Shown: positions 31,559 to 48,431 of the stretch, piece by piece
Position numbering within the stretch: the first letter of the stretch is position 1
Layout of the letters: every line of letters begins with the position of its first letter
Assembly: GCA_009773355.1 (NCBI GenBank)
Contig: WRPG01000007.1
Location: 62,001-126,000 of the forward strand
DNA length: 64,000 bases
Direction: 5' to 3'
From: Limisphaerales bacterium
GTDB taxonomy: Bacteria > Verrucomicrobiota > Verrucomicrobiia > Limisphaerales > SXTU01
Translations under genes and position numbers: made by a program
Notes under the pieces: model-generated
The model's input: only the letters and a program-made list of their open reading frames with translations
Told to the model about the DNA's origin: nothing
Databases searched by the model: none

Positions 31559-31721
31559 CTCTCATTAGCACCGGGCTTCAGCCCGGTGAAACACGGCGGC
31601 AAGTGGCAGAGCCGTTTCAACGGCTTAGTCCTGCCTTGCTGCGGTCAGGCAGAAACCGTTGAAACGGTTTCTCCCCCTCATCGTGCCTCCACACCCGGCT
31701 GAAGCCGGGTGCTAATGAGAG
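31559..31721. repeat. Nested twin-hairpin element, family D
   Basis: Outer arms at 31559-31594 and 31690-31721 carry ATTAGCACC followed by a CCGGGCTTCAGCCCGG-type or CCCGGCTTCAGCCGGG hairpin. Inside them is a second inverted pair (31610-31627 and 31652-31671) with AGCCGTTTCAACGGCT and AAACCGTTGAAACGGTTT hairpins. It fills the gap between the amidotransferase start and the tandem amidohydrolase, and its TAG is the amidohydrolase stop codon (31712-31714). Confidence 0.92.
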
Positions 31722-35511: not shown

Positions 35512-36129
35512 TCAGGCGGTTCGTTCGACAAATCGCTTCAGCAAGTTCAGGCCGGCGGCATGGGACTTCTCCGGGTGAAACTGCACACCCATCACATTGC
35601 CGCGCTCGACACCGGCGACGAACTCGCCGCCGTAGTCGCTCGTCAGCGCCACGTCCGCCGCGTCCGCCGGCGCGAAGTGGTAGCTGTGGACGTAGTAGAA
35701 GCAGTCCTTCGCCCCCGCGTCCCCGAGCAGCGAGCCGGTGCGGCGCGACACGGTGTCGTTCCAGCCGATGTGTGGCACGCGCAGGCCGGGCGCGTTGAAA
35801 CGCACCACGCGGCCAGGAATCAGGTTCAGCCCGGCGGTCAGTTCGTGCTCCTCGCCCTCGGTCGCAAGCAGTTGCATCCCGAGGCAAATACCGAGTATCA
35901 GCCTTCCCTGCCCCACCAGCCGACGCACCGCATCCTCGAAACCGAGCGTCCGAAGCTGGTGCATCCCCTGCGGGAACGCGCCGACGCCGGGCAGCACGAT
36001 GTGCGTGGCCGGCTCCAGTTCGGCGGGTGTGACGGCGATGCACACATCCGCACCCACCTTCGCGAACGCGTTGTGGAGCGACGCGAGGTTGCCCATGCCG
36101 TAACCGATGATGGCGATTTTTGGTTTCAC
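35512..36129 (-). CDS. hisH: HisH-like glutamine amidotransferase subunit
   Basis: A 205-residue class I glutamine amidotransferase that releases ammonia from glutamine. The nucleophile is in LGICLGMQLLATEG (Cys at about residue 82) and the His-Glu pair in VMGVQFHPEKSHAAG. The N-terminal IIGYGMGNLASLHNAF and oxyanion loop LPGVGAFPQGM are typical of HisH. No other histidine-biosynthesis gene is nearby, whereas the sugar amidotransferase (30305) and the Asp11-less HisF homologue (33847) are, so it most likely feeds ammonia to sugar amidation. Confidence 0.93.
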   Translation of the reverse strand: MKPKIAIIGYGMGNLASLHNAFAKVGADVCIAVTPAELEPATHIVLPGVGAFPQGMHQLRTLGFEDAVRRLVGQGRLILGICLGMQLLATEGEEHELTAGLNLIPGRVVRFNAPGLRVPHIGWNDTVSRRTGSLLGDAGAKDCFYYVHSYHFAPADAADVALTSDYGGEFVAGVERGNVMGVQFHPEKSHAAGLNLLKRFVERTA

Positions 36130-36149
36130 GCTGCTCGTGACGGAGGCCG

Positions 36150-36875
36150 CTACGCACCGAGCTTCTTTTGCTCGACGTGCGCGTTGAGCGTGGCCAATTC
36201 AGGCTTGGCCTTCAACAGTTTCAACACGTCCGCCGTGGTGAAGTCCGCGCCCAGCGCGGCATAGACGGCCTCGACGAACTGCCAGTCCTCCGGCGTGTCG
36301 AGCGTCCAGCGGTGCGCGGACAAGTCTTCGGTGCCAAGGAAGGTGTTCACCCGGAACAGCTCGGGGTGCTGGTAGAAATAGGGCGTGACATGCTCGCGTT
36401 CGTGCTGCCGCGTCGCCTCGCGATGCGCGCGGGTCAGCGCGGCCAAGGTGAAAATCTCCGCGTCAAGTCCGCGCGGATAGCAGCGCACCTGCACGTTGCT
36501 CAGGTAGTCAAGCCCTCGGATTGCGGGGAAAGCTGCGAGCATCTCGTCCAGCAATGCGCCGTCGAAGAGCGGGCAATCCGACGTGACGCGCACGATGACA
36601 TTCGCGCCGCTGGCTTGGGCCGCGCCGAAGTAGCGGTCGAGCACATCCTGCTCGCTGCCGCGCCAGCAGCTCACGCCCAGCCGCGCGGCCTCGGCGACAA
36701 TCGGCTCATCGGCGGGCGATTCGGTCGTGGCGATGCAGATGCCGTCGAGCCGCTTCGCCAGCCGCACGCGGCGCACGACGTGGCCGAGCACGGTGTCGCC
36801 CGCGAGGTGCTTCAGCACCTTGCCCGGCAGCCGCGTGGAACCCACGCGGGCCTGGATGATGGCGATGGTTTTCAT
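36150..36875 (-). CDS. SpsF/PseF-type cytidylyltransferase, copy 2
   Basis: A 241-residue paralogue of the gene at 34769. It begins IAIIQARVGSTRLPGKVLKHL, keeps RVTSDCPLFDG for metal binding, and contains GLDYLSNVQVRCYPRGLDAE, which aligns with the DVDYCANVLQRTHPRGMD segment of copy 1. It is the gene immediately downstream of the pseI-like gene, so it is the better positional candidate for CMP-pseudaminate synthetase (PseF). The intervening gap is occupied by a perfect family B element whose left arm ends about 4 bases upstream of this ATG, within the normal ribosome-binding region. Confidence 0.88.
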   Translation of the reverse strand: MKTIAIIQARVGSTRLPGKVLKHLAGDTVLGHVVRRVRLAKRLDGICIATTESPADEPIVAEAARLGVSCWRGSEQDVLDRYFGAAQASGANVIVRVTSDCPLFDGALLDEMLAAFPAIRGLDYLSNVQVRCYPRGLDAEIFTLAALTRAHREATRQHEREHVTPYFYQHPELFRVNTFLGTEDLSAHRWTLDTPEDWQFVEAVYAALGADFTTADVLKLLKAKPELATLNAHVEQKKLGA

Positions 36876-36878
36876 CTC

Positions 36879-36965
36879 AACTCGTAGGAGACGACGTGAG
36901 GAGTCTCACTTTTGGATTCGGAAGCAGGTTCAATCAGAGACTCCTCACGTCGTCTCCTACGAGTT
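36879..36965. repeat. Perfect twin-hairpin element, family B, overlapping pseI end
   Basis: Inverted arms of 29 bases (36879-36907 and 36937-36965) without mismatch; core GTAG, stem GAGAC/GTCTC and loop GACGTGAGGA. The right arm encodes the last residues of PseI (VGDDVRSL) and the stop codon follows directly in the spacer. The left arm occupies the 5' leader of the cytidylyltransferase gene. Confidence 0.95.
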
Positions 36966-38004
36966 CCCAACTCAGCGGCGTGCCGCGCTTCGCATCGTGC
37001 TTCGCCTTCCGGCCGAGCACCTCGCCCAGATGCCGCGTGTGCAGGCCGTGGCCGGGGCGGATGCTGCGGACGTTCTGCGCGGTGAACGGCTCGCCGGCCT
37101 TCACATCGGCGACGACGAAAAGCGAGCGGCGGAACTGCCGGCTCTTTGCCTCGTTTGCGCTGACCTCGTAGTTCACGCGGCCCAGCGCCTTCTCCGTTGT
37201 GCGGATGGCGGCGACCATCGCTTTGAACTCGTCCGGCTCCAGCGAGAAGGTGCTGTCCGGGCCGGGCGTGGCGCGCGAGAGGGTGAAGTGCTTCTCGACG
37301 ATGCACGCGCCCAGCGCGACCGCCGCGACGGGCACGGTGTGGCCCATCGTGTGGTCGCTCAAGCCGACGGGCACGCCGAAACACGCCGCCATGTCCGCGA
37401 TGGTGCGCAGGTGCATCTCCTCGGGCAGCGCGGGATAGGCGCTGGTGCATTTGAGGAGCGCGAGCTGTGTGCAGCCACCGTCGCGCAGCGTCTTCACGGC
37501 CTCTGCGATTTCCTCCTGCGTGGCCATGCCGGTCGAGGCGATGATCGGTTTGCGCGTGGTGGCGATTTTGCGCAGCAGCGGCAGGTCCACCAACTCGAAG
37601 GACGCGACCTTGTGGCACGGGACGTTCATCGCTTCGAGGAAGTCCACGGCGCTCGCATCGAAGGGCGTGGAGAAGAAGTCGAGGCCGAGTTCGGTCGCCA
37701 CGGCTTGGAGCTTGGGCTGCCAATCCCACGGCATGAAGGCTTCCTGATAGAGATCGTGCAGCGTGCGCCCGTCCCAGAGCGTGCCGCCGCCGATGCGGAA
37801 AAACTCGTTGTCGCAGGGGATGGTGAGCGTGTCGGCGGTGTAGGTCTGGACCTTTACGGCGTCGGCACCGGCTGCGGCCATCGCGCGCACAATGCGGACG
37901 GCTTGGTCGAAGTCCTGCCCGTGGTTGGCGGACAGCTCGGCGATGAGGTAGGCCGGGTGGCCGGGGCCGACCTTGCGCGAGCCGATGGTGAGTTCGGGAG
38001 TCAT
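36934..38004 (-). CDS. pseI: Pseudaminic acid synthase (NeuB family)
   Basis: A 356-residue NeuB-family enzyme that condenses phosphoenolpyruvate with a 2,4-diacetamido-trideoxy-altrose to give pseudaminic acid. Seen: LIAELSANHGQDFDQAVRIV at the N-terminus, DAVKVQTYTADTLT, FFSTPFDASAVDFLE, and GLSDHTMGHTVPVAAVALGA. PEP- and metal-binding His/Glu follow in CIVEKHFTLSRATPGPDSTF. The C-terminal antifreeze-like SAF domain includes VRSIRPGHGLHTRHLGEVLG. PseI is preferred over NeuB/LegI from the EKHFTLSRATPGPDSTFS region. Its C-terminal tail is encoded by the family B element. It overlaps the upstream pseG-pseH gene by 4 bases (ATGA). Confidence 0.92.
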   Translation of the reverse strand: MTPELTIGSRKVGPGHPAYLIAELSANHGQDFDQAVRIVRAMAAAGADAVKVQTYTADTLTIPCDNEFFRIGGGTLWDGRTLHDLYQEAFMPWDWQPKLQAVATELGLDFFSTPFDASAVDFLEAMNVPCHKVASFELVDLPLLRKIATTRKPIIASTGMATQEEIAEAVKTLRDGGCTQLALLKCTSAYPALPEEMHLRTIADMAACFGVPVGLSDHTMGHTVPVAAVALGACIVEKHFTLSRATPGPDSTFSLEPDEFKAMVAAIRTTEKALGRVNYEVSANEAKSRQFRRSLFVVADVKAGEPFTAQNVRSIRPGHGLHTRHLGEVLGRKAKHDAKRGTPLSWELVGDDVRSL

Positions 38005-39665
38005 GGTTCAGCCGCGCTTCGCTTGAGTTCAAAGCGCAGCGCGGCGCAGCCTTTTACCTCGGTTTGGCCTGCCGGTTCAAACCCGGCTTTCTCGAAGGCG
38101 CGGATGGAGGCGGCGTTGTCCGGCTTGATGAAGGCGTGGATGGCTTCCACGGCAGACTCGCGGAAAAGCTTCTGGCAGGCCGTCCAGATGAGCAGCGCGC
38201 CGAGGTTTTTGCCGCGCCGTGAAGCGTCGAGGCTCACGGAGATCGTGGCGATGCAGCCTTCGAGGTCGAAGCGGACTTGGCCGAGAGGTGGAGCGCCGGT
38301 TTCCAAACCGGCCCGCAGCCATTCGCCAGAACCTAAAGCCGGTTCGGAGACCGGCGCTCCGGCTTGCTCGGCAATCCACAGGCGCGTGTTTGCGTCGGCG
38401 AGCTTGCGGGTGAACCATGCGGTGTGCTGCTCCCACAGGATCGGGTCGGACGTGAAGGAGACGGCGCGGACGGCGGGGTCGTTGGCCCATTGCCAGACGC
38501 GGCGGCAATCGTCGGTGGTGGCGGGGCGGAGGTGGAGCGAGTCCTCGTTCATGCGCAGCCAGACGCGGAAGGTGCCGAGGCCGTCCACAAGCGCGCGGGC
38601 GCGGCGGGACATCTCGGCGCGGCGCGGGGCGTCGGCGAGGAGGGAGCGGAGATCGGCGGAGAGCGATGCGATGGTCGTGTGGATGGCCGCGCCGGTCTGG
38701 GCGAGGCGCTCGGCGTTGGGGCGCTGGTTCTCGGCGAGGACGAGCACGAGCATGGGGACGCCGAGGAAGGAGAGTTCCCACGCGGTCGTGCCGCCGGCGC
38801 AGATGGCGAGGTCGGCGCGGGACATGAGCTGCGGGAGATCCGGTGGGTTCTGGTGAAGGGTGATAGCCGATGGCCGATTGCCAATCGCCGATTGCAGTGA
38901 GGCGGCGTGCGGGTTGGCGGGGCCGAGGATGATGTCGGCGGTGAGGTTCGGGATGGTTTGGAGAATCGAGAGGACTTGGGCGGTGACATTGTCAGGGTCG
39001 CTGCCACCGAGGGTGACGAGGAGGTGTGGTGTGGGCGAAGCCCCCTCACCCCGGCCCTCTCCCCCGGTGGGGGCGAGGGAGGGGAGGCGCGCGGTGCTCG
39101 TTTGCGCGGCTCCGCGGGTGAACTCGCCGCGCAACTGGACGAAGCGGGGGCCGAGGAGGAGGTGCGTGGTTGGGTCGCGGTGCGGGTAGAGGGCGGCGGT
39201 CGCGCCGAGATTTTGGTTCAGGATGAAGTCGGCGGAGTAGCGGGCGGCTTGGGCGGTGTCGTCGAAGACGAGGAGGCGGATGCGGGCGGCTTTCACGGCG
39301 CGCTGGAAGGCGGCGTCGAAGTGGTAGCCGTCGAGGACGAGCCAGGTGGCGCGGAGGGATTGCGCAAGGGCGATGGTCTCGGCGGCGTCGGCGGGCGAGC
39401 CGGGCGGGGCGGAGAGTTCGCGGAGGGAGACGCTGAGGGATTCGGCACGGGCGCGGAGGGCGTCTGTGCCGGCGGTTTGTAACCGCCGCTCCGTGGGGTT
39501 GTCGGAGCCGGCGGACGGCGGTTGCAAACCGCCGGCACGGGGGGCGGTGAGCAGCGTCACGGTGCTGCCGGCCTGCAACCACGGCTCCGCCAGCGCGAGG
39601 CAGCGCATCACATGGCCCATGCCGATTTGCGGGCCGGCGTCAGCGCGGAGGAGGAGGGTGGACAT
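38001..39665 (-). CDS. pseG: PseG-PseH fusion with four in-frame repeat insertions
   Basis: A 554-residue bifunctional protein. Residues 1 to about 345 are a PseG-type GT-B-fold UDP-sugar hydrolase (LLLRADAGPQIGMGHVMRCL at the start, LLVTLGGSDPDNVT, and AICAGGTTAWELSFLGVPML). Residues about 372-554 are a PseH-type GNAT acetyltransferase (LHLRPATTDDCRRVWQWAND, then VSLDASRRGKNLGALLI). The two act consecutively with PseC in making the pseudaminate precursor. Four dispersed repeat elements are translated inside it: family L at residues 43-67, H at 194-208, K at 257-267 and A at 436-459. They are rich in Gly/Pro/Arg and presumably form surface loops. Without them the hydrolase part would be close to a normal PseG in length. 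Confidence 0.9.
   Translation of the reverse strand: MSTLLLRADAGPQIGMGHVMRCLALAEPWLQAGSTVTLLTAPRAGGLQPPSAGSDNPTERRLQTAGTDALRARAESLSVSLRELSAPPGSPADAAETIALAQSLRATWLVLDGYHFDAAFQRAVKAARIRLLVFDDTAQAARYSADFILNQNLGATAALYPHRDPTTHLLLGPRFVQLRGEFTRGAAQTSTARLPSLAPTGGEGRGEGASPTPHLLVTLGGSDPDNVTAQVLSILQTIPNLTADIILGPANPHAASLQSAIGNRPSAITLHQNPPDLPQLMSRADLAICAGGTTAWELSFLGVPMLVLVLAENQRPNAERLAQTGAAIHTTIASLSADLRSLLADAPRRAEMSRRARALVDGLGTFRVWLRMNEDSLHLRPATTDDCRRVWQWANDPAVRAVSFTSDPILWEQHTAWFTRKLADANTRLWIAEQAGAPVSEPALGSGEWLRAGLETGAPPLGQVRFDLEGCIATISVSLDASRRGKNLGALLIWTACQKLFRESAVEAIHAFIKPDNAASIRAFEKAGFEPAGQTEVKGCAALRFELKRSAAEP
38290..38360. repeat. Twin-hairpin element, family A, in frame
   Basis: Arms at 38290-38312 and 38338-38360, each GGAGCGCCGG followed by a hairpin with a TCC-type loop (CCGGTTTCCAAACCGG, and CCGGTCTCCGAACCGG on the other strand). 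It is translated as the segment APVSEP...LETGAP within the PseH domain. Confidence 0.9.
38865..38896. repeat. Family K tandem repeat, in frame
   Basis: Degenerate copies of the 8-base GCCGATTG-type unit (GCCGATGGCCGATTGCCAAT and following). On the coding strand it gives LQSAIGNRPSA within the PseG domain, close to the SAIGNRQSA peptide made by the copy at 16590. Confidence 0.82.
39042..39084. repeat. Family H single arm, in frame
   Basis: One arm of the family H element (CCCTCACCCCGGCCCTCTCC followed by CCCGGTGGGGG). It is translated as LAPTGGEGRGEGASPTP in the PseG domain; compare LPAGEGRGEGERPP from the copy at 27081. Confidence 0.85.
39466..39538. repeat. Twin-hairpin element, family L, in frame
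   Basis: Arms at 39466-39488 and 39516-39538, inverted with a single mismatch. Each is GTGC followed by CGGCGGTT/AACCGCCG around a 3-base loop (TGT or TGC). It is translated as AGGLQPPS...RRLQTAGT near the N-terminus of PseG. It is the stem-variant counterpart of family E. Confidence 0.92.
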
Positions 39666-39676
39666 CGGCGACGGCT

Positions 39677-39828
39677 CCTCTTATTAGCACCCGGCTTCAG
39701 CCGGGTGTTGCGTAGCGGCGGGGAGCCGAACCGTTTCAACGGTTTGGCGGGGCGGGACAAAACCGTTGAAACGGTTTTGTTCTCTCACCGTGCCTTTCAC
39801 CCGGGTGAAGCCGGGTGCTAATGAGAGG
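39677..39828. repeat. Nested twin-hairpin element, family D
   Basis: Outer arms at 39677-39707 and 39798-39828 carry ATTAGCACCCGGCTTCAGCC hairpins. An inner inverted pair (about 39730-39747 and 39759-39778) has AACCGTTTCAACGGTT and AAACCGTTGAAACGGTTT hairpins. It fills the gap between the pseG-pseH start and the next upstream gene. Same plan as the element at 31559. Confidence 0.92.
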
Positions 39829-39837
39829 GCGATTCGA

Positions 39838-40218
39838 TCAACGAAAGACCGGTGGTCGGTAGTGTTCCATCGCATAGTCATTGATGGCCTTCATCTCCTC
39901 ACGAGTGACTTCGTCCCTAAAGTAGCAGCCATCTTTGTCGCACCGAAGGAACTCGTTCAGCGCGGGCACTGCGGCTACAAACTCAGTTAGTTCCTCGAAG
40001 ATCTTCGCAGGTTCTTTGAACCAAATGTAGGGATGCCTGCTGTTCATCAGCGTTCCGCGGTTCCACCAACTCGCAAGTTGGATGCACATTAGCCGTATCC
40101 TTAACCCGTCGAAAGCTCCGACTGCGCCAGCGAAGGTCGGACCCACTGTCCAGTCTTGAAGATAGGAAATAACGTCCTTCACGACTTGGCGAACGGCCGG
40201 ACTATCGGAGAGCGACAT
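39838..40218 (-). CDS. Hypothetical protein, 126 aa
   Basis: A small soluble protein starting MSLSDSPAVRQVVKDVISYL, with LMCIQLASWWNRGTLMNSRH and a C-terminal REEMKAINDYAMEHYRPP. No family is recognised. Its composition is clearly less GC-rich than the neighbouring pse genes and its codon use differs, which suggests a later insertion between pseC and pseG-pseH. The ATG at 40218 sits 1 base after the pseC stop; the frame is open to 40269 but would overlap pseC. Confidence 0.62.
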   Translation of the reverse strand: MSLSDSPAVRQVVKDVISYLQDWTVGPTFAGAVGAFDGLRIRLMCIQLASWWNRGTLMNSRHPYIWFKEPAKIFEELTEFVAAVPALNEFLRCDKDGCYFRDEVTREEMKAINDYAMEHYRPPVFR

Positions 40219-40219
40219 G

Positions 40220-41383
40220 TCAGCGAAGGATTCGTGTGAGCGTCTCCACCACCCGCTCTTGTTCCCCATCCGTCAGCCCCGCGAACATCGGCAGGCTGAT
40301 GGTCTCGGCGTAGTAGCGTTCCGCTTCGGGGAAGTCGCCGTCCTTGAAGCCGAGGCGGCGGTAGTAGGGCTGGGTGTGGACGGGGATGTAGTGGATTTGC
40401 ACGCCGATGCCGGCGGCGCGGAGCTCCTCGACGATCTGGCGGCGGGTCTTCTGGAGCCGGTCGAGGCGCAGGCGGATGACGTAGAGGTGCCAGGCGTTGG
40501 CGGTGTCCGGGTGCTGCCAGGGCGTGAGGAGCGGGAGGTCGCGGAGGAGTTCGTCGTAGCGGCGGGCGAGGGCGCGGCGGCGGGCCACGAACGCGTCGAG
40601 CTTGTTCATCTGGCTCTCGCCGAGCGCGGCCTGAAGGTCGGTGAGTCGGTAGTTCCAGCCGAGTTCGGTCTGCTGGTAATACCACGGGCCGTGGCTCTCG
40701 CCTTCCATGAGCTTCGGGTCGCGTGTGATGCCGTGGCTGCGGAAGAGGAGCAGGCGCTCGTGAAGGTCGGTGCGGTTCGTGACGACCATGCCGCCCTCGG
40801 CGGTGGTGATAATCTTGACTGGGTGGAAGCTGAAGATGGCGAGGTCGCTGTGCGCGCAGGAGCCGACGGGCCGCCCGCGATAGCTCGCGCCGATGGCGTG
40901 CGCGGCGTCTTCGAGGACGAGGATGCCGTGGCGCTTCGCGAGTGCGGCGATGGCTTCCATCTCGCAGGACTGGCCGGAGAAGTGGACGGGGACGAGGGCT
41001 TTTGGGAGCCGACCGGTCTTTGCGGCGGCGGCAAGTTTCTCCTCCAGCCGCGTGACGCTCATGTTGTAAGTGCGCGGGTCAATGTCCACGAAGTCCACGT
41101 CCGCGCCGAGGTAGCGGGCGCAGTTGGCGGAGGCGACGAAGGTGTTGGGCGAAGTCCAGAGACTGTCGCTAGGTTGGAGATCGAGCGCGGCGGCGGCGAT
41201 GTGGAGGGCGGCGGTGCCGTTGGCGACGGCGACGGCGTATTTCACGCCGCAGTAGGCAGCGACCTTGCGCTCGAAGCGTTCGATGGCCGGGCCTTGCGTG
41301 AGCCAGTCGGAGCGGAGGACGGCGACGACGGCGGCGATGTCGTCCTCGTCAATGAGCTGGCGGCCGTAGGGGATGACCTTCAT
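40220..41383 (-). CDS. pseC: UDP-sugar 4-aminotransferase, PseC-type
   Basis: A 387-residue DegT-family PLP aminotransferase that adds the 4-amino group in the pseudaminate pathway. Seen: IPYGRQLIDEDDIAAVVAVL at the start as in PseC, AVANGTAALHIAAAAL (cofactor site), VLEDAAHAIGASYRG, and the Schiff-base Lys in FSFHPVKIITTAEGGM at about residue 190. The C-terminal GIGVQIHYIPVHTQPYYRRL is also typical of PseC. It is 17 bases downstream of pseB. The ATG at 41383 gives the standard family start. Confidence 0.94.
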   Translation of the reverse strand: MKVIPYGRQLIDEDDIAAVVAVLRSDWLTQGPAIERFERKVAAYCGVKYAVAVANGTAALHIAAAALDLQPSDSLWTSPNTFVASANCARYLGADVDFVDIDPRTYNMSVTRLEEKLAAAAKTGRLPKALVPVHFSGQSCEMEAIAALAKRHGILVLEDAAHAIGASYRGRPVGSCAHSDLAIFSFHPVKIITTAEGGMVVTNRTDLHERLLLFRSHGITRDPKLMEGESHGPWYYQQTELGWNYRLTDLQAALGESQMNKLDAFVARRRALARRYDELLRDLPLLTPWQHPDTANAWHLYVIRLRLDRLQKTRRQIVEELRAAGIGVQIHYIPVHTQPYYRRLGFKDGDFPEAERYYAETISLPMFAGLTDGEQERVVETLTRILR

Positions 41384-41400
41384 GGCGCAGGCGGGCGCGG

Positions 41401-42426
41401 CTAGGCGAGGTCGAACGACGCGTCCACATGCTGGCGGATGAGGGCGCGGATCTGCGGGACGTTGAGCCAGTCGGTGTTGCGGCCGGAGTTGAAGGAGAAG
41501 CCCTCGGGCACGGGCGCGCCGGCGTGGTGCTGGCAATACTCGGCCATGACCTCGGCCTGGTCGCGCAGGTGCGGCATGGGCACGATGACGTATTGGTGCG
41601 CGGTGGCGATGGTCTGGAGCGCATCTGTCTCAGTGACCATTTCCTCGTGGATTTTCTCGCCGGCGCGGATGCCGACGACGGGCTTGGCGCAGTCCGGCCC
41701 GATGGCTTCGGCGACATCGGTGATGCGGTAGCTGGGAATCTTGGGCACGAAAATCTCGCCGCCCAGCGCGGTGGTGGCGGCGTCAATGACCATCTTCACG
41801 CCTTCATCGAGCGTGATGTTGAAGCGGGTCATGCGCGGGTCGGTGATGGGCAGCGTGCCGGTCTTGCGGCGGTCGAGGAAGAACGGGATGACGGAGCCGC
41901 GCGAGCCCATGACGTTGCCGTAGCGGACGACGGAGAAGCGGATGTCGTGGTTGCCGCGGATGTTGTTGGCGGCGATGAAGAGCTTGTCGCTGCACAGCTT
42001 GGTCGCGCCGTAGAGGTTGATGGGCGCAGCGGCCTTGTCGGTGGAGAGGGCCACGACGTGACGCACGCCGGCGGCGAGGCTGGCCTCGACGAGGTTTTCC
42101 GCGCCGAGGACGTTGGTCTTGATGCACTCGAAGGGGTTGTATTCGGCCGTGGGCACCTGCTTGAGCGCGGCGGCGTGGACCACCACGTCAATGCCCTCGA
42201 GCGCGCGGGTGAGGCGGTCGCGGTCGCGGACATCGCCGATGAAGAAGCGCACTTGGGGGTGCCTGGCGAAGGGAAAGTGCTGCGCCATCTCGAACTGTTT
42301 AAGCTCGTCGCGCGAGAAGATGACGAGCTTGCGGGGGGCGTGATGCTTCAGGAGGGTTTCCGTCAACCGCTTGCCAAAGGAGCCGGTGCCCCCCGTGATG
42401 AGCACCGAAGAGTTTTGCCAATTCAC
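41401..42426 (-). CDS. pseB: UDP-GlcNAc 4,6-dehydratase (inverting), PseB-type
   Basis: A 341-residue short-chain-dehydrogenase-type enzyme for the first step of pseudaminate synthesis, combined 4,6-dehydration and C5 inversion of UDP-GlcNAc. The NAD(P) motif ITGGTGSFGKRL is at the N-terminus. GDVRDRDRL, HAAALKQVPTAEYNPFE, the catalytic STDKAAAPINLYGATK segment and SRGSVIPFF follow in PseB order. First gene of the minus-strand cluster; the promoter should lie in the 122-base divergent region to 42549, where I see no twin-hairpin element. Confidence 0.95.
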   Translation of the reverse strand: MNWQNSSVLITGGTGSFGKRLTETLLKHHAPRKLVIFSRDELKQFEMAQHFPFARHPQVRFFIGDVRDRDRLTRALEGIDVVVHAAALKQVPTAEYNPFECIKTNVLGAENLVEASLAAGVRHVVALSTDKAAAPINLYGATKLCSDKLFIAANNIRGNHDIRFSVVRYGNVMGSRGSVIPFFLDRRKTGTLPITDPRMTRFNITLDEGVKMVIDAATTALGGEIFVPKIPSYRITDVAEAIGPDCAKPVVGIRAGEKIHEEMVTETDALQTIATAHQYVIVPMPHLRDQAEVMAEYCQHHAGAPVPEGFSFNSGRNTDWLNVPQIRALIRQHVDASFDLA

Positions 42427-42548
42427 GCGGCGAGGCTAGCAACAAGGCGCGCCGGTATGCCATAAGAAGTTCCACTGCGGGATGCAGGTGAAACCCCGGC
42501 TTAAATCGGATTGCCAAAAACCGCGTCCTGTTCCTAAGCTTCCCGACC

Positions 42549-44336
42549 ATGAAGCACGTTTCCTTGCTCCTGTTCGCAGCGTGTCTGGTGCTGGCCTGCC
42601 CCAGCGCCAGGGCGGCGGCGGCGGATGAGCTTTACGTCAAGGTGTTCAACACGGTCCTGCAGGGGGATTCCCTCCGCGAGGCCGGCCAGGGCAAGCAGGC
42701 CCTGGAAAAATACCTGACCGCGCAGGATGAGCTCAAAAAGCTCCAGGCCGCCTACAAGACGTGGGAGCCAAAGCTGGTCGCGTTCCGTCTGCAATACCTC
42801 AACGACTGGGTGACGCGGTTAAGCGTGCAGTTCCCCGGCACCACCGCGCCGAAGCCGATCATCCCGACGAGCCAGACCGGCGACGAGGCCGGCTCGGAGA
42901 AACTGACCGGTCTCGAGAAGCAAATCCGCGACCTGAACAACGAGCTGGTCAAGGCCCGCGCGGAGGCAAGCGGCGCCCAGCAGCGGCTCAAGGAAGCCCT
43001 CGCCGCCCGCCCCAAGGACGTGGACCCCGCCGAACTGGCCAAGGCCCAGCAACGCGCGCGCGACCTGCAAAAGGCCGCCGACCTCAAGCAAATCGAACTG
43101 GAGGACGCGACCAAAGCCCGCACCGCCCTGATCAAGGAGCGCGACGACTTGCAGAAGCGCGTCGCCGTCCTCACCGACAAGGCCGAGGTGCCCGTGCTCA
43201 AGAAGGAAAACACCGCGCTCAAGATGAAGATTGACGAGCTGACCAAGCGCGCCGCCGCCGGTGACAAGTCCGAGGCGCTGGCGGGCGAACTCGCCGCCGC
43301 CAAGGCCCAGCTCAAGGCCGAGCAGGCCCGCGCCGCCGAACTCGCCAAGGCCAACCAGAAGATGGAGGCGATTCTCACCGACCCGAACAACGCCACGGGC
43401 ATCACCGTGGATCAGTTCAAGTCGCTCGAGAAGAAGAACAAGGACTTGGAGTCGGCCGTCAAGGCGCTTGAATCCCAGGTCCAGAAGGGGGCTGCGGACG
43501 GTGGCAAGCTCCGGCAAATGGAGAAGGAACGCGAGAACCTGCAGAAGCAGCTCAACGAACTGCAAAAGCAGTTGAACGAGAAGAAGAAGGTTTCCAGCAA
43601 CGCGACGGACAAAGTCGAACAGGAACTGGCCGCCGCCCAGGCCAGGGTGGCGGCACTGGAGGCCCGAAAAACACCCTACACGGCGGAGGAGCTCGCCTTG
43701 TTGAAAGGCTCCTCCGCTCCGGTCGCGGCTCCCGCGCCGGTCGCCAAGTCGGCAAAGAAAAACTCTGCCGACCTGCCGCCCGGTGCCGCGAGCGTGGCCC
43801 TCGAAGCCCAGCGCGCCTACGCCGCCCAGCGCTTCGATGACGCGGAGAAGAAATACCTCGAAGTCCTCACGCTCGATCCGGACAACGTCTACACGCTCGC
43901 CAACCTCGGCGCGGCGCAGATGGAGCTGAACAAGCTCGCCGAGGCCGAATCGCACCTCAAACGCGCGCTCGCGCTCGAGGCCGACGACGCCTTTTCCCTC
44001 GCCCTGCTCGGCCTGCTCAAGTTCCGCCAGCAGAAGCCCGACGACGCCTTCGACGCCCTCAGCCGCGCCGCCAAGCTGGACCCGGACAACGCGCAGACGC
44101 AGAACTACCTTGGGCTGGTGTTGAGCATGAAAGGCCAGCGCGAGCCTGCCGAGGCCGCCTTCCGCAAGGCCATCCAGCTCGCGCCCGGCTACGCCGTCGC
44201 GCACTACAACCTCGCGGTCTATTACGCCACCCAGCAGCCGCCCACCCGTGAACTGGCCCGCTGGCACTATCAGAAAGCCGTCTCCGTCGGCCACCCCAAG
44301 AGCGACGAACTGGAGAAGCTCCTCGCGCGGAATTGA
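42549..44336 (+). CDS. Exported coiled-coil and TPR protein
   Basis: A 595-residue exported protein. A signal peptide (LLLFAACLVLACPSARA) is followed by a long Ala/Lys/Glu-rich coiled coil from about residue 115 to 375 (KQIRDLNNELVKARAEASG, KERENLQKQLNELQKQLNEK). A Pro/Ala-rich linker and about four TPR units then occupy residues 415-590 (AQRFDDAEKKYLEVLTLDPD, LAEAESHLKRALALEADDAF, GQREPAEAAFRKAIQLAPGY). The layout resembles periplasmic scaffold proteins. The stop codon lies inside the left arm of the family I element. Confidence 0.85.
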   Translation: MKHVSLLLFAACLVLACPSARAAAADELYVKVFNTVLQGDSLREAGQGKQALEKYLTAQDELKKLQAAYKTWEPKLVAFRLQYLNDWVTRLSVQFPGTTAPKPIIPTSQTGDEAGSEKLTGLEKQIRDLNNELVKARAEASGAQQRLKEALAARPKDVDPAELAKAQQRARDLQKAADLKQIELEDATKARTALIKERDDLQKRVAVLTDKAEVPVLKKENTALKMKIDELTKRAAAGDKSEALAGELAAAKAQLKAEQARAAELAKANQKMEAILTDPNNATGITVDQFKSLEKKNKDLESAVKALESQVQKGAADGGKLRQMEKERENLQKQLNELQKQLNEKKKVSSNATDKVEQELAAAQARVAALEARKTPYTAEELALLKGSSAPVAAPAPVAKSAKKNSADLPPGAASVALEAQRAYAAQRFDDAEKKYLEVLTLDPDNVYTLANLGAAQMELNKLAEAESHLKRALALEADDAFSLALLGLLKFRQQKPDDAFDALSRAAKLDPDNAQTQNYLGLVLSMKGQREPAEAAFRKAIQLAPGYAVAHYNLAVYYATQQPPTRELARWHYQKAVSVGHPKSDELEKLLARN

Positions 44337-44447
44337 ATGGCCGCGAAAGGGCGCAGAGGTCGCAAAGCAAAGCTGAAAGTGGTGGCTGTTCGTTGTTGGT
44401 TCGGTTTGACCCCTTTGTGATCTTTGCGCCCTTTCGCGGCCAATTCA
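44333..44447. repeat. Twin-arm element, family I
   Basis: Inverted arms of about 35 bases (44333-44367 and 44413-44447) share GGCCGCGAAAGGGCGCA-type sequence with few mismatches. The left arm contains the TGA of the upstream TPR gene; the right arm ends 5 bases before the YjbQ start codon. A related but diverged copy is at 57531. Confidence 0.88.
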
Positions 44448-44452
44448 TTCCC

Positions 44453-44875
44453 ATGCTCCGCCAAAGCACCCACGAACTCGTCGTCCCGACGCGTGGTCGT
44501 GGTTTCACCGAGATCACCCACGAAATCGTGACGCTCGTCCGCCAGGCCGGCCTGCAAGCCGGCCTCGCCACGCTGCACCTCCGCCACACCTCCGCCTCGT
44601 TGCTCATCCAGGAAAACGCGGACCCCGAAGTCCGCCGCGACCTGGAGCGCTTCTTCGCCCGCCTCGCGCCCGACGGCGACCCGCTCTTCCAGCACACCTG
44701 CGAGGGCGACGACGACATGCCCGCGCATGTCCGCACCGCGCTGACCACCGTGAACCTCAGCATCCCCATCGCGCGTGGGGAGCTGGTCCTCGGCACCTGG
44801 CAGGGCATCTACCTCTGGGAACACCGCACCGTGCCGCATCGCCGGCAGCTTGTGCTGCACCTGTTGGGCGAGTGA
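44453..44875 (+). CDS. yjbQ: YjbQ/UPF0047 family protein
   Basis: A 140-residue single-domain protein of the YjbQ family (secondary thiamine-phosphate synthase-like). Family hallmarks: GLATLHLRHTSASLLIQENA, then DPEVRRDLERFF. The metal-site histidines and acids are in FQHTCEGDDDMPAHVRTAL, and GTWQGIYLWEHR is near the C-terminus. The physiological role in bacteria is uncertain; weak thiamine-phosphate synthase activity is known for the family. The ATG at 44453 matches the usual length. Confidence 0.95.
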   Translation: MLRQSTHELVVPTRGRGFTEITHEIVTLVRQAGLQAGLATLHLRHTSASLLIQENADPEVRRDLERFFARLAPDGDPLFQHTCEGDDDMPAHVRTALTTVNLSIPIARGELVLGTWQGIYLWEHRTVPHRRQLVLHLLGE

Positions 44876-44889
44876 CGCTCCAATCGCAA

Positions 44890-44913
44890 CTCGACATTGG
44901 AATGTCGAGCTGC
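44890..44913. repeat. Family C single hairpin arm
   Basis: A single arm with a 9-bp hairpin, CTCGACATT/AATGTCGAG around GG, and a GCTGC tail in place of GCTAC. It lies in the 49-base gap between convergent yjbQ and the GT-C/TPR gene and could act as a bidirectional transcription stop. The partner arm is not recognisable. Confidence 0.75.
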
Positions 44914-44924
44914 GCCGGGACGCT

Positions 44925-46862
44925 TCACCGCTGTTCAGCCGCCTTCCGCAATCGCTCCGCTTCCGCCGCATGCTGCCGCGCCTCGTCGGACTTGCCCTGC
45001 TTCGCCAGCACTCCTGCCAACTGCGCGTGCGCGTCGGCGGTCTGCGGGTTGAGTTGCAGTGCGCGATTGAGACTCTCCACCGCGCGGCTCAAGTCGCCTT
45101 TGCTGGTGAGCGCGATGCCGTAATTCAAGTGTGTAGCCGCGCTGTCCGGCTTGAAGCGCAGCGCCTCGTCAAACTGCGCGAAGGCGGCGTCGAACTTCCC
45201 CTGCCGCGCCAGCGCAATGCCGTAATTGTTCCGCGCGGCCAGGTGGCGTGGTGCCATCGCGACGGCCTTGGCGTAGGCGGCTTCGGCCTCGGCCCAGCGC
45301 CCTTGGCGCGCCAGCACGTTGCCGAAGTTGAAGGGCAGTTGCACGAAGGCGGTGTCCGGGTTGATGGCCAGCGCCTCCCGGTAGCACGCCTCGGCCTTCG
45401 TGTCCGCATCCGCGTCGGCATGGGCGTTGCCGAGCTTGAGCAAGGCCACCGAGCGGTAATGGCTGGTGGGCGGCAGGCGGCGGAGCAACTCCTCAAAAAA
45501 CACGAAGTCGTTCTCCCACACGCGCGCCTGGCGCTGGCTGGCGACCACGCAGAGGGCAGCCAGGATCCCGGCCATCACCAATGCGGGCCGTCGCCAGGGA
45601 CCATTGCGCCAGTGCCAAAGCAGCGCTGCGGCAGCGACCGCGACCAGCACGCCGTTCACGATGGCGTAGCGGTCGTGCGGATAGTGCGGCCGCTCCGTGA
45701 GACCGAGCATGGGCACGAGCAGGCCCAGATGCGCGAGCCATAACGCCAGCGCCGCCGGCCACCGCCGCCAGCGTGCCAGCAGCAGCCCGGTGACGCCGAC
45801 CACGGCGATGGCACTGGCGGTGAACGCGGGGTCGAACGGGTGGTTCCCCAGCAGCGTGGTGTAGAATGGCCCAAGGTCCAGCGGCAGGAGGGATTTCCAA
45901 ACGTAGTAAGCCCACAGGTAGAAGGCCTGCATCGCGCGCGCCGCGAGCGTGAACTCGCCCAGGCTCGTCGGCTTGGACCAGTCACCGGTGACGAAGAACC
46001 GGCCATAGACCGTGCCGGCCACGAGCAGGAGCGAGAGCGCGAGGAAGGGGAGCTTGTCCCGGAGCGCCGGTGTCCAACCGACGTTGGCCGCGGCTTCACC
46101 TTCGCGCCGGTTGGACACCGGCGCTCCGCCAAGCCGACGCAGCGGGTAGAAATCCAGCGCCAGCAGCGCCGCGATGAACCCAAGCACGATGGGATACGAC
46201 AGCACCGCCAGCGCGAACGCGGCGACGGACAGCCAGTAGTCCCGCTTGCGCGCGGCCGGCCCGCCCTCCGGCGCGTTGGCCCGCAGGTAAAGCAGCGCGG
46301 CCACCAGCGCAAACAACAGCGCCAGCCCGTAAGGCAGCCCTGTTACCCACGCCACCGGCTCCACGCGCAGCGGGTGCACGGCCCACAGCAATGCGCCCAG
46401 CGCGGCGCAAGCGTCCAGCGTAGCAGCCGACGTGAGGAGGCTCTGATCTTCTTTCCGCGCTCTGCGTTCCGCGTTCCGCATTTCAGATGGAGCCTCCTCA
46501 CGTCGGCTGCTACCGGGAGTTGCGAGTTGTAGCAGCCGCCGGATGAGCAGGAAGACAAGCACCGCGTTCACGCAATGCAGCAGCACGTTGGCGAGGTGGT
46601 AGCCGAAGGGGTTCAGTCCAAAGACTTCATGCACCAGCGCCCACGCCAGCCACGAGAGCGGTTTGTAGCGGATGGCCTGCTCGAAGTCGGTGAACATCCA
46701 GCGCAGGTTCTCCGCCGTCAGCCCTTGCACATGCGGGTTCTCGAAGACGTTGATATCGTCGTCCCAGCGCAGAAAGCCTGACTCCAGCGTGCGGAAGAAG
46801 ACGCCGAAGACCACCGCGATAAGCGTGAAGACAATGGCCGTGGTGCGGTGGTGCGGGCGCAT
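44925..46862 (-). CDS. GT-C-like membrane protein with TPR repeats
   Basis: A 645-residue protein with about ten membrane helices in the first 430 residues and roughly four TPR units at the C-terminus (AEAEAAYAKAVAMAPRHLAA, LSRAVESLNRALQLNPQTAD). The N-terminal segment FLRWDDDINVFENPHV followed by NPFGYHLANVLLHCVNAV is the pattern of TMTC/PMT-type lipid-dependent O-mannosyltransferases, with the Asp pair in the first external loop. Two dispersed elements are translated in frame: family M (about residues 117-148) and family A (about residues 246-268), both in loops between membrane helices. The start at 46862 gives MRPHHRTTAIVF just before the first helix. Confidence 0.82.
   Translation of the reverse strand: MRPHHRTTAIVFTLIAVVFGVFFRTLESGFLRWDDDINVFENPHVQGLTAENLRWMFTDFEQAIRYKPLSWLAWALVHEVFGLNPFGYHLANVLLHCVNAVLVFLLIRRLLQLATPGSSRREEAPSEMRNAERRARKEDQSLLTSAATLDACAALGALLWAVHPLRVEPVAWVTGLPYGLALLFALVAALLYLRANAPEGGPAARKRDYWLSVAAFALAVLSYPIVLGFIAALLALDFYPLRRLGGAPVSNRREGEAAANVGWTPALRDKLPFLALSLLLVAGTVYGRFFVTGDWSKPTSLGEFTLAARAMQAFYLWAYYVWKSLLPLDLGPFYTTLLGNHPFDPAFTASAIAVVGVTGLLLARWRRWPAALALWLAHLGLLVPMLGLTERPHYPHDRYAIVNGVLVAVAAAALLWHWRNGPWRRPALVMAGILAALCVVASQRQARVWENDFVFFEELLRRLPPTSHYRSVALLKLGNAHADADADTKAEACYREALAINPDTAFVQLPFNFGNVLARQGRWAEAEAAYAKAVAMAPRHLAARNNYGIALARQGKFDAAFAQFDEALRFKPDSAATHLNYGIALTSKGDLSRAVESLNRALQLNPQTADAHAQLAGVLAKQGKSDEARQHAAEAERLRKAAEQR
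46061..46127. repeat. Twin-hairpin element, family A, in frame
   Basis: Arms at 46061-46083 and 46104-46127, with GGAGCGCCGGTGTCCAACCG on the left and its inverse on the right. It is translated as GGAPVSNRR...VGWTPALRD inside a loop of the GT-C/TPR protein. Confidence 0.9.
46420..46513. repeat. Perfect twin-hairpin element, family M, in frame
   Basis: Perfectly inverted 24-base arms (46420-46443 and 46490-46513). Each is GTAGC, then stem AGCC/GGCT around the loop GACGTGAGGA. It is translated as SSRREEAPSEMRNAER and ARKEDQSLLTSAATL within the GT-C/TPR protein. Confidence 0.93.
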
Positions 46863-46869
46863 GGTCAGG

Positions 46870-46946
46870 CGTGTTGCGTGTTGCGTGTTGCGTGAAAAGG
46901 ACCGTCGCGGCCGTGTGCCCGCACGCAACACGCAACACGCAACACG
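46870..46946. repeat. Inverted 7-base-unit repeat, family G
   Basis: Arms at 46870-46894 and 46922-46946, perfectly inverted, each built of about 3.5 copies of GTGTTGC. It lies in the leader of the GT-C/TPR gene, downstream of the enolase-superfamily gene. Confidence 0.9.
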
Positions 46947-46994
46947 CGCCATCTCGCGAATGAAAGCCTCGTATTCATCGCCACTTTCCCCCGC

Positions 46995-48431
46995 TCACTC
47001 CCACTCCCACGCGTCTGCGGGCGTGAATTGCCCGGTGTTCAGCAGGAACTTCACGCCGAACGCCGCCTCGTTCACGGAGCCGAGCGCGATGCGCCCGCGC
47101 TCAATCGTCAGCGTCGGCCAGCCGGCGGGGCTGGGGTGGTAGAGGTCGAAGTGCGCGCGGAGGATGTCCTCCTGCACGGCGCGCGGGAACTGCGAGAGGC
47201 CGGCGTTGTAGTGGTGGCCATTGCGCTCGACGCTCTTGATGCCCAGCGCCGCGCAGACCGCGAGGTCCTGCAGCAGCGCCACCGGGCCGACGTTGCACAA
47301 GTCCTCGCCGCTCATCAGGAACGGCCGCGTGGGCGACTGCTGCTGCCGGTGCGCGAGCAGGCAGCGGTTCGCCACGCCCTTGATGACGCCCTTGCAGTTC
47401 TTGTGGCTCGTGCCGTCGTAGCCGAGCGCGAGCGCGGCGGGCAGGCTGTCCAGTTCGCCGTCCGACTCATCAATGATGAAGGGCGGGCGCTCCGGCCAGT
47501 CCGCGAGCGCGGCGGCGGCGTCCTTGTGCAGCGCGAGCGAGCGATGCAACGGCTGCTCGACGAACAGGAGCTTCGTCAGAAACGGCTTCAGTGATTCGTC
47601 CGCGCGCAGGGTTTCCCAGAACTGCCGGAACCCGGCGAAGGACTTGAACTGCTCGTTGCCGTCGAGCGTGAAGGCGAAGTCCTCCCCGCACTCCGCCTGC
47701 AAGACCCGCGCGATTTGCCGCAGCCGCTCCGTGTCGCGCGCGAGGTCGCCGTTCACCTTGAGCTTGAAGTGGCGCAGGCCATACACGCGGATGCTGGCGA
47801 CGAGCGACTGCGGCAGGCCGTCGTTCAAGTGCTCGCCCGTCGCGATGTCAGCGTCCGTCAGTGGATCGCTCAACCCGACGGTGTGGCGTGCGATGACTTC
47901 CCCGTGCGGACGTGCCGGCAGCCACTTTGCGGGCGAGAACCCTTCGAGTTCGGAGCGCAGTTCGCCGAGGCGGATGCCGAAGTCATTGTCGAGCAAAGCG
48001 CGGTGAAAAGGCTTCGCAATGGCCCGGCAAAAGGCGTCCATCACCGCGCGCTCGACGAGCGACGTGCCGAAGTGCGCGAGCAGCGGCGGCTTGTTCTCCG
48101 CCGTCGCCCACGCCGTTTGCGAATCGTAGAGTTGCAGCCACAGGTCAAACACACTCGGGGCGTTCTGCTCCTCCGCCGTCTCCATCGCCGTCTCAATTAC
48201 ATCCAGCATCTCGTGGATTTCGTCCAACACCTCGCGCGCGGGGTCCTTCGTGAACCACTTCGGCGGCAGCAGGTCCGCCGCCACGCCCAGCGTCGTGCGC
48301 CCGTTGACCTCCAGCGCCACGCGCACGAAGGCCATCGGCATGTGCGTCATCGTCGCGATGCCGTATTTGAACGGCATCCGCGTGTGCAGATTGTGCAGAT
48401 GCAAGTCGCCTTCGCAGACCCGGATGTTCAC
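46995..48431 (-). CDS. Enolase-superfamily enzyme (mandelate racemase-like)
   Basis: A protein of about 478 residues with the enolase-superfamily layout. The barrel's general base Lys is in HFKLKVNGD, the metal ligands are Asp in FTLDGNEQF, Glu in FVEQPLH and Asp/Glu in IIDESDGE, and a second Lys lies in TSHKNCKGVIKG. The C-terminal GPVALLQDLAVCAALGIKSV is typical of the capping region. Substrate unknown; these enzymes abstract an alpha-proton from a carboxylate. No ATG is well placed: I use a GTG at 48431 (VNIRVCEGDL); a TTG at 48467 is an alternative. It is divergent from the gene at 48619. Confidence 0.82.
   Translation of the reverse strand: MNIRVCEGDLHLHNLHTRMPFKYGIATMTHMPMAFVRVALEVNGRTTLGVAADLLPPKWFTKDPAREVLDEIHEMLDVIETAMETAEEQNAPSVFDLWLQLYDSQTAWATAENKPPLLAHFGTSLVERAVMDAFCRAIAKPFHRALLDNDFGIRLGELRSELEGFSPAKWLPARPHGEVIARHTVGLSDPLTDADIATGEHLNDGLPQSLVASIRVYGLRHFKLKVNGDLARDTERLRQIARVLQAECGEDFAFTLDGNEQFKSFAGFRQFWETLRADESLKPFLTKLLFVEQPLHRSLALHKDAAAALADWPERPPFIIDESDGELDSLPAALALGYDGTSHKNCKGVIKGVANRCLLAHRQQQSPTRPFLMSGEDLCNVGPVALLQDLAVCAALGIKSVERNGHHYNAGLSQFPRAVQEDILRAHFDLYHPSPAGWPTLTIERGRIALGSVNEAAFGVKFLLNTGQFTPADAWEWE

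Follow-up and report, generated by a model that had tools for sequence, protein, structure and literature searches.

Recent in-frame insertions of REP-doublet-like palindromes in a PseG–acetyltransferase gene of a Limisphaerales bacterium, with empty sites in close relatives

The insertion of palindromic repeats in frame into bacterial protein genes has been described before, and the closest case comes from the same phylum. In the verrucomicrobium Opitutus terrae, Di Nocera et al. (2013, PMC3733652) described intragenic, in-frame REP dimers with variable spacers of 20–100 bp. More than half of the intragenic inserts in that study are dimers or groups, encoding 20–30 residues; uvrA genes carry double insertions, and recB of two Xanthomonas species has different REPs at about one site. 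For REPINs, Bertels and Rainey (2011, PMC3116915) found that the mobile unit consists of two inverted REPs with a less conserved spacer, and that the genes for REP-associated tyrosine transposases (RAYTs) lie near the repeats. REP tag variants on record are GYAG, GTRG and GTGG. Rickettsia palindromic elements (Ogata et al. 2000, 2002, reviewed in PMC10969869) are about 150 bp long, sit in frame in unrelated genes and encode a conserved peptide.

The DNA analysed here is a stretch of 64,000 nucleotides (the window; contig WRPG01000007.1, positions 62,001 to 126,000) from the 6.16 Mb genome of a lake bacterium (G000). Among named relatives, those nearest to it are metagenome-assembled genomes of Verrucomicrobiota. 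The window contains a gene whose single, stop-free frame of 554 codons holds tracts from four dispersed repeat families. The gene, its neighbours and the four tracts are as follows.

36934–38004, minus strand: PseI, pseudaminic acid synthase (TIGR03586, E 3e-146), cluster context
38001–39665, minus strand: fusion of PseG and a PseH-like GNAT domain, 554 aa (TIGR03590, Acetyltransf_3, Foldseek 3hbm)
38290–38360, minus strand: element L, GGAG-tagged inverted repeat pair with 23-nt arms and a 25-nt unique spacer, about residues 436–459
38862–38889, minus strand: tract A, heptamer array (GGCNATY)4, about residues 259–268
39038–39088, minus strand: element K, one unit of the GGGGAGAGGGCCGGGGTGAGGGGG type, located in the linker that joins the two PseG domains
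39466–39538, minus strand: element H, GTGC-tagged inverted repeat pair with 23-nt arms and a 27-nt unique spacer, about residues 43–67
40220–41404, minus strand: PseC, aminotransferase (TIGR03588, E 1e-169), cluster context
41401–42426, minus strand: PseB, UDP-GlcNAc 4,6-dehydratase (TIGR03589, E 4e-151), cluster context

Elements H and L share with the Opitutus dimers the phylum, the build of tagged dimers with a variable spacer and the in-frame position. However, those dimers carry GTAG, whereas here GTGC and GGAG mark separate families, and the same gene also holds a heptamer tract and element K. The build of the mobile unit and the proximity of RAYT genes to the repeats match REPINs, but Pseudomonas REPINs are described as extragenic and constrained in spacer length, whereas here the spacers are unique in sequence and differ in length, with many of the copies intragenic. 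Rickettsia palindromic elements, to which an earlier note on this DNA had likened the tracts, are an apt parallel for how the elements work, being palindromic and in frame in unrelated genes (here 32 sampled pairs); membership of that group does not follow, since the pairs here span about 53–103 bp and their spacer peptide is not conserved. In-frame palindromic insertion is thus already known in kind, and what is new here is the other tags and the well-supported empty sites; the case is ordinary in kind and unusually well documented.

The host gene is a member of a pseudaminic-acid cluster, because PseI, PseC and PseB adjoin it. Residues 3–320 match the PseG model TIGR03590 (E 8.5e-60) with 202.7 bits, above the curated cut-off of 153.6, and the best Foldseek match of the predicted structure is the solved Campylobacter PseG 3hbm (TM 0.83 on target). 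The C-terminal half (residues 377–530) is a GNAT acetyltransferase domain (Acetyltransf_3, 1.1e-12). Of the PseG–PseH label first given to the gene, only the PseG part stands as it was: the PseH model TIGR03585 reaches 40.8 bits on the C-terminal half, below its cut-off of 93.1, so that PseH-like GNAT domain is the better name.

The tracts were compared in protein and DNA alignments of the window gene with close orthologues from a congener (L005, 84% identity), from G034, a genome of another family of the same order (L034/L006, 82%), and from a third genome (L035, 79%); distant PseG proteins were compared as well. H and L are recent in-frame insertions, each consisting of an inverted repeat pair that encloses a unique spacer. 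Element H adds a net 69 nt (approximately 23 residues, with AGGLQPPSAG in the translation there), and L005, L034 and L035 all have the empty site. Element L adds a net 66 nt (approximately 22 residues, with PVSEPALGSGEW in the translation), and its site is empty in L005 and L034; the L035 sequence stops short of it. The flanks of both elements are clean and collinear in the orthologues without them, and since this collinearity holds on both sides, misassembly at the repeats is unlikely. A target site duplication, as expected of a MITE moved by a DDE transposase, does not stand out when the empty sites are aligned: there is no added duplicate, just 4–5 nt that overlap the tag, and in L005 and L034 the boundary of the empty L site reads GGAGCG. 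No alternative filling of the H or L site was seen in the PseG orthologues.

Elements K and A have different histories. Element K (approximately 16 residues) is common to the window gene, L005, L034 and L035 and missing from distant PseG proteins, whose linker is approximately 16 residues shorter; K therefore appears as an older insertion in these alignments. At the position of tract A, L005 and L034 show a (TCCCATC)n array of equal length that keeps to the 7-nt register of the window gene, and the absence of any length change rules out an insertion there. The earlier note had read the gene as carrying four in-frame, stop-free elements. The open frame and the tracts are real, but the four do not rank alike as insertions, and the alignments give 23 + 22 + 16, or approximately 61, added residues instead of the roughly 75 proposed. 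The note had also reasoned that the same residues in homologues elsewhere would mark ancestral protein sequence; such sharing is found for K and, as regards length, for A, but not for H and L. That the tracts as a whole are ancestral protein, resembling repeats by coincidence or through codon bias, is a reading to which A, without added length, and K, present in all four close orthologues, lend some support. However, H and L are absent from orthologues of about 75–84% identity with clean flanks, and their arm motifs occur an estimated 200 times or so per genome and hardly at all in shuffled sequence. The empty sites refute this reading for H and L, and overall we regard it as highly improbable.

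Tract A is an oddity in its own right: one length-conserved stretch of PseG (window 38862–38889 and its counterparts in L005 and L034) contains two heptamer families, depending on the species, as if the units had been homogenised. The GGCNATY heptamer triple has 77 matches in the G000 genome, against 0 for a reversed control pattern. Exact tandem arrays of at least 3 units in a 1.52 Mb sample of G000 are mostly of 7-nt units (47; the counts for 5, 6, 8 and 9 nt are 5, 8, 2 and 1), even though 7 nt do not make up a whole number of codons. Cyanobacterial heptamer repeats (STRR) are dispersed arrays of 7-nt units. Tract A is like them in its dispersed 7-nt arrays, with different unit sequences.

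The G034 gene retains its high identity to the window gene despite coming from a different family, and heptamer scars are otherwise almost absent from that genome: its sole (CCCATCT) array genome-wide is the one in the PseG gene, and GGCNATC has 1 match there versus 77 in G000. The G034 gene was probably acquired by horizontal transfer from the repeat-rich genus, which would account for its high identity.

Codon changes on the branch leading to the window gene, which pool the time before and after the H and L insertions in a way that cannot be divided, number 33 synonymous and 30 non-synonymous, against a random-mutation expectation of 1316:3556, indicating that the gene is under purifying selection. 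The opposite view, that this is a decaying pseudogene tolerating anything, could draw on the two insertions on a single branch and on the slightly higher non-synonymous share compared to L005 (30/63 versus 26/67). Yet 554 codons without stop or frameshift, retention of the invariant PseG residues, the purifying pattern and the intact pathway neighbours make decay extremely unlikely, and the enzyme is presumably active.

A predicted structure (mean pLDDT 84, pTM 0.85) places the insertions at the least confident parts of the fold. The pLDDT falls below 50 only at residues 12–14, 45–54, 187–208 and 438–456, the last three corresponding to H, K and L; at H and L, shallow alignment may account for part of the drop. 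H, K and L are thus predicted to lie in disordered loops, with H in a beta-alpha loop, K in the PseG interdomain linker and L in a beta-hairpin of the GNAT domain. Tract A, by contrast, falls in a helix and a strand that are predicted to be folded (pLDDT 79–87). The suggestion that insertions are tolerated in loops is well supported.

To put the tracts in a genomic context, motifs were counted in the 1.52 Mb sample, about a quarter of G000, with codon-shuffled sequence as control. The H, L, K and A motifs occur 56, 63, 9 and 46 times, compared to 0, 6, 0 and 0 in the control. Inverted-arm pairs above the score threshold number 77 in 0.41 Mb and 0 in the control, and the 258 pairs in 1.52 Mb correspond to an estimated 1,050 or so per genome, with GTAG (54), GGAG (56) and GTGC (23) among the outer tags. 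Thirty-two of the 258, or about one in eight, are in frame within genes as judged by a home-made coding score and not by annotation. Arms are near-constant within a family and spacers are unique from copy to copy, so that H and L cannot be traced to a donor copy; one GTAG family and the TTAG family share their spacer in part. Spacers as copied DNA were ruled out, since matches between them are limited to nested or under-extended repeat arms. An Rfam search over window positions 36000–48000 gave zero matches. Two composite elements (window 31559–31721 and 39677–39828) have a TTAG-type outer pair around an inner palindrome, AACCGTTTCAACGGTT. At window 36884–36960, a GTAG pair orthologous to one in L005 has kept its arms, and its mid-spacer is far more diverged than the flanks.

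Further closely spaced pairs are also present in the sample, and a second gene of the window, at 44925–46952, contains two pairs in frame.

46061–46127, minus strand: GGAG-tagged pair in frame; three congeners have the site filled, others have it empty
46420–46513, minus strand: GTAG-tagged pair in frame; some congeners have other repeat families there

Occupancy by several families is therefore also seen outside the PseG gene, and of the four unrelated families said to have hit that gene, two are clear recent insertions, a third is an older one and the fourth is a heptamer tract. Across congeners, a given site in this second gene and in other regions is empty, holds the same family but a different spacer, or is filled by another family. 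At one site (L080:11194), for example, G000 carries a GTAGCAGCC pair, L223 and L224 a GTAGCCGCC pair and L226 a GGAG pair; others are empty. In the equivalents of a further site (L145:15310), which is filled in G000, L235 and L236 have a short remnant like one GTAGCAGCCGACGTGAGGA arm that resembles in-frame decay.

This turnover raises the possibility that the insertions are adaptive, with enzyme loops being refilled because a new loop alters activity or interaction, as the different families held by the same loops of other genes might suggest. However, such sites occur in unrelated genes too and the PseG orthologues offer no alternative filling at H or L, and we consider this very unlikely indeed. 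A broader conjecture is that certain protein loops of the genus are standing sockets in which palindromic families of unrelated origin come, go and are replaced in different species, always in frame, with RAYT-type elements as a continuing generator of loop variants under selection; this we hold to be doubtful. Because eleven genomes of the genus have the same loops empty or variously filled, it becomes possible to test whether such insertions, beyond being tolerated, are put to use. A practical warning follows for annotated Verrucomicrobiota proteins, which include repeat-derived residues that are non-homologous between species.

The reading frame provides a view of what happens after insertion. 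All 10 of the in-frame GTAG pairs have a length of 1 mod 3, versus 19 of the 43 elsewhere (Fisher p = 0.001); at such lengths, taking off the 4-nt tag leaves a number divisible by three. Length differences between congeners, which are not phylogenetically independent, are divisible by three in 54 of 58 cases at in-frame sites, versus 23 of 45 elsewhere (p = 1e-6). Since copies outside genes come in all three lengths mod 3 and the in-frame GTAG pairs in one, the frame is kept by selection and not by the design of the element. For the GGAG and GTGC pairs, in-frame lengths are mixed mod 3, so that GTAG alone shows the minus-4 rule clearly. One could still suppose that the elements are fashioned for coding, with selection on length and frame to yield a useful or neutral peptide anywhere, and every tract in the PseG gene is indeed stop-free. 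But the GTAG lengths outside genes point to a post-insertion filter, no excess of stop-free 1 mod 3 copies is seen there, and spacers, and hence peptides, vary by copy; we regard such shaping as very unlikely.

In their build, H and L match REP doublets or REPINs: each arm consists of a tetranucleotide tag plus a hairpin, and the tags face outward in the pair. The pairs are dispersed at high copy number, and their movement is apparent from filled versus empty sites. The tags are not exact GTAG, being GGAG in L and GTGC in H; degenerate forms of GTAG are allowed in REPs, and GTAG families coexist in G000. A Pfam search had given the impression of too few transposases for so many repeats, an idea that was dropped once model NF047646 yielded three RAYT genes (C27:165 kb, C27:210 kb and C63:33 kb). 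The one at C27:210 kb has GTAGCTCGACATT pairs, of one GTAG family, on either side, and congener RAYTs are bounded on either side by GGAGCGCGGC pairs (L174, L199), GTAGCAGCC pairs (L198) and, elsewhere, others. Because congener RAYTs carry pairs of its tag type on both flanks, the tag type of element L is RAYT-linked in the genus. None of the RAYTs examined in G000 and congeners is flanked by the GTGC family of H, and none in G000 is flanked on both sides by exactly the family of L.

Both the GGAGCG at the empty L sites and the CGGAGCGCC at the boundary of the empty site of the 46061 pair in G002 suggest that the target already brings the tag, which would then serve as the insertion target; the tag at the empty L site could also have been left by precise loss in the relatives. 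We infer that H and L are REP doublets (REPIN-like), inverted copies of tag plus hairpin around a copy-specific spacer, that were most likely mobilised in trans by RAYTs, which are HUH enzymes. With a target that probably holds the tag beforehand, an element would add approximately its own length minus 4 nt, and in a needed gene the survivors would be those that bring a multiple-of-three gain and no stop in the gene's frame to a tolerant loop. Taken together, recent REP doublets moved in trans by RAYTs into tag-bearing targets, followed by a post-insertion filter and with A not an insertion, make up the account that we consider probable. It would make this gene a clear example of mobile palindromes that add loops to an enzyme which probably works, with the empty sites on view in close relatives. 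At L072:109–1905 (G000:C27, about 164–166 kb), a proline racemase-like protein and a RAYT are fused in a single open frame of 599 aa.
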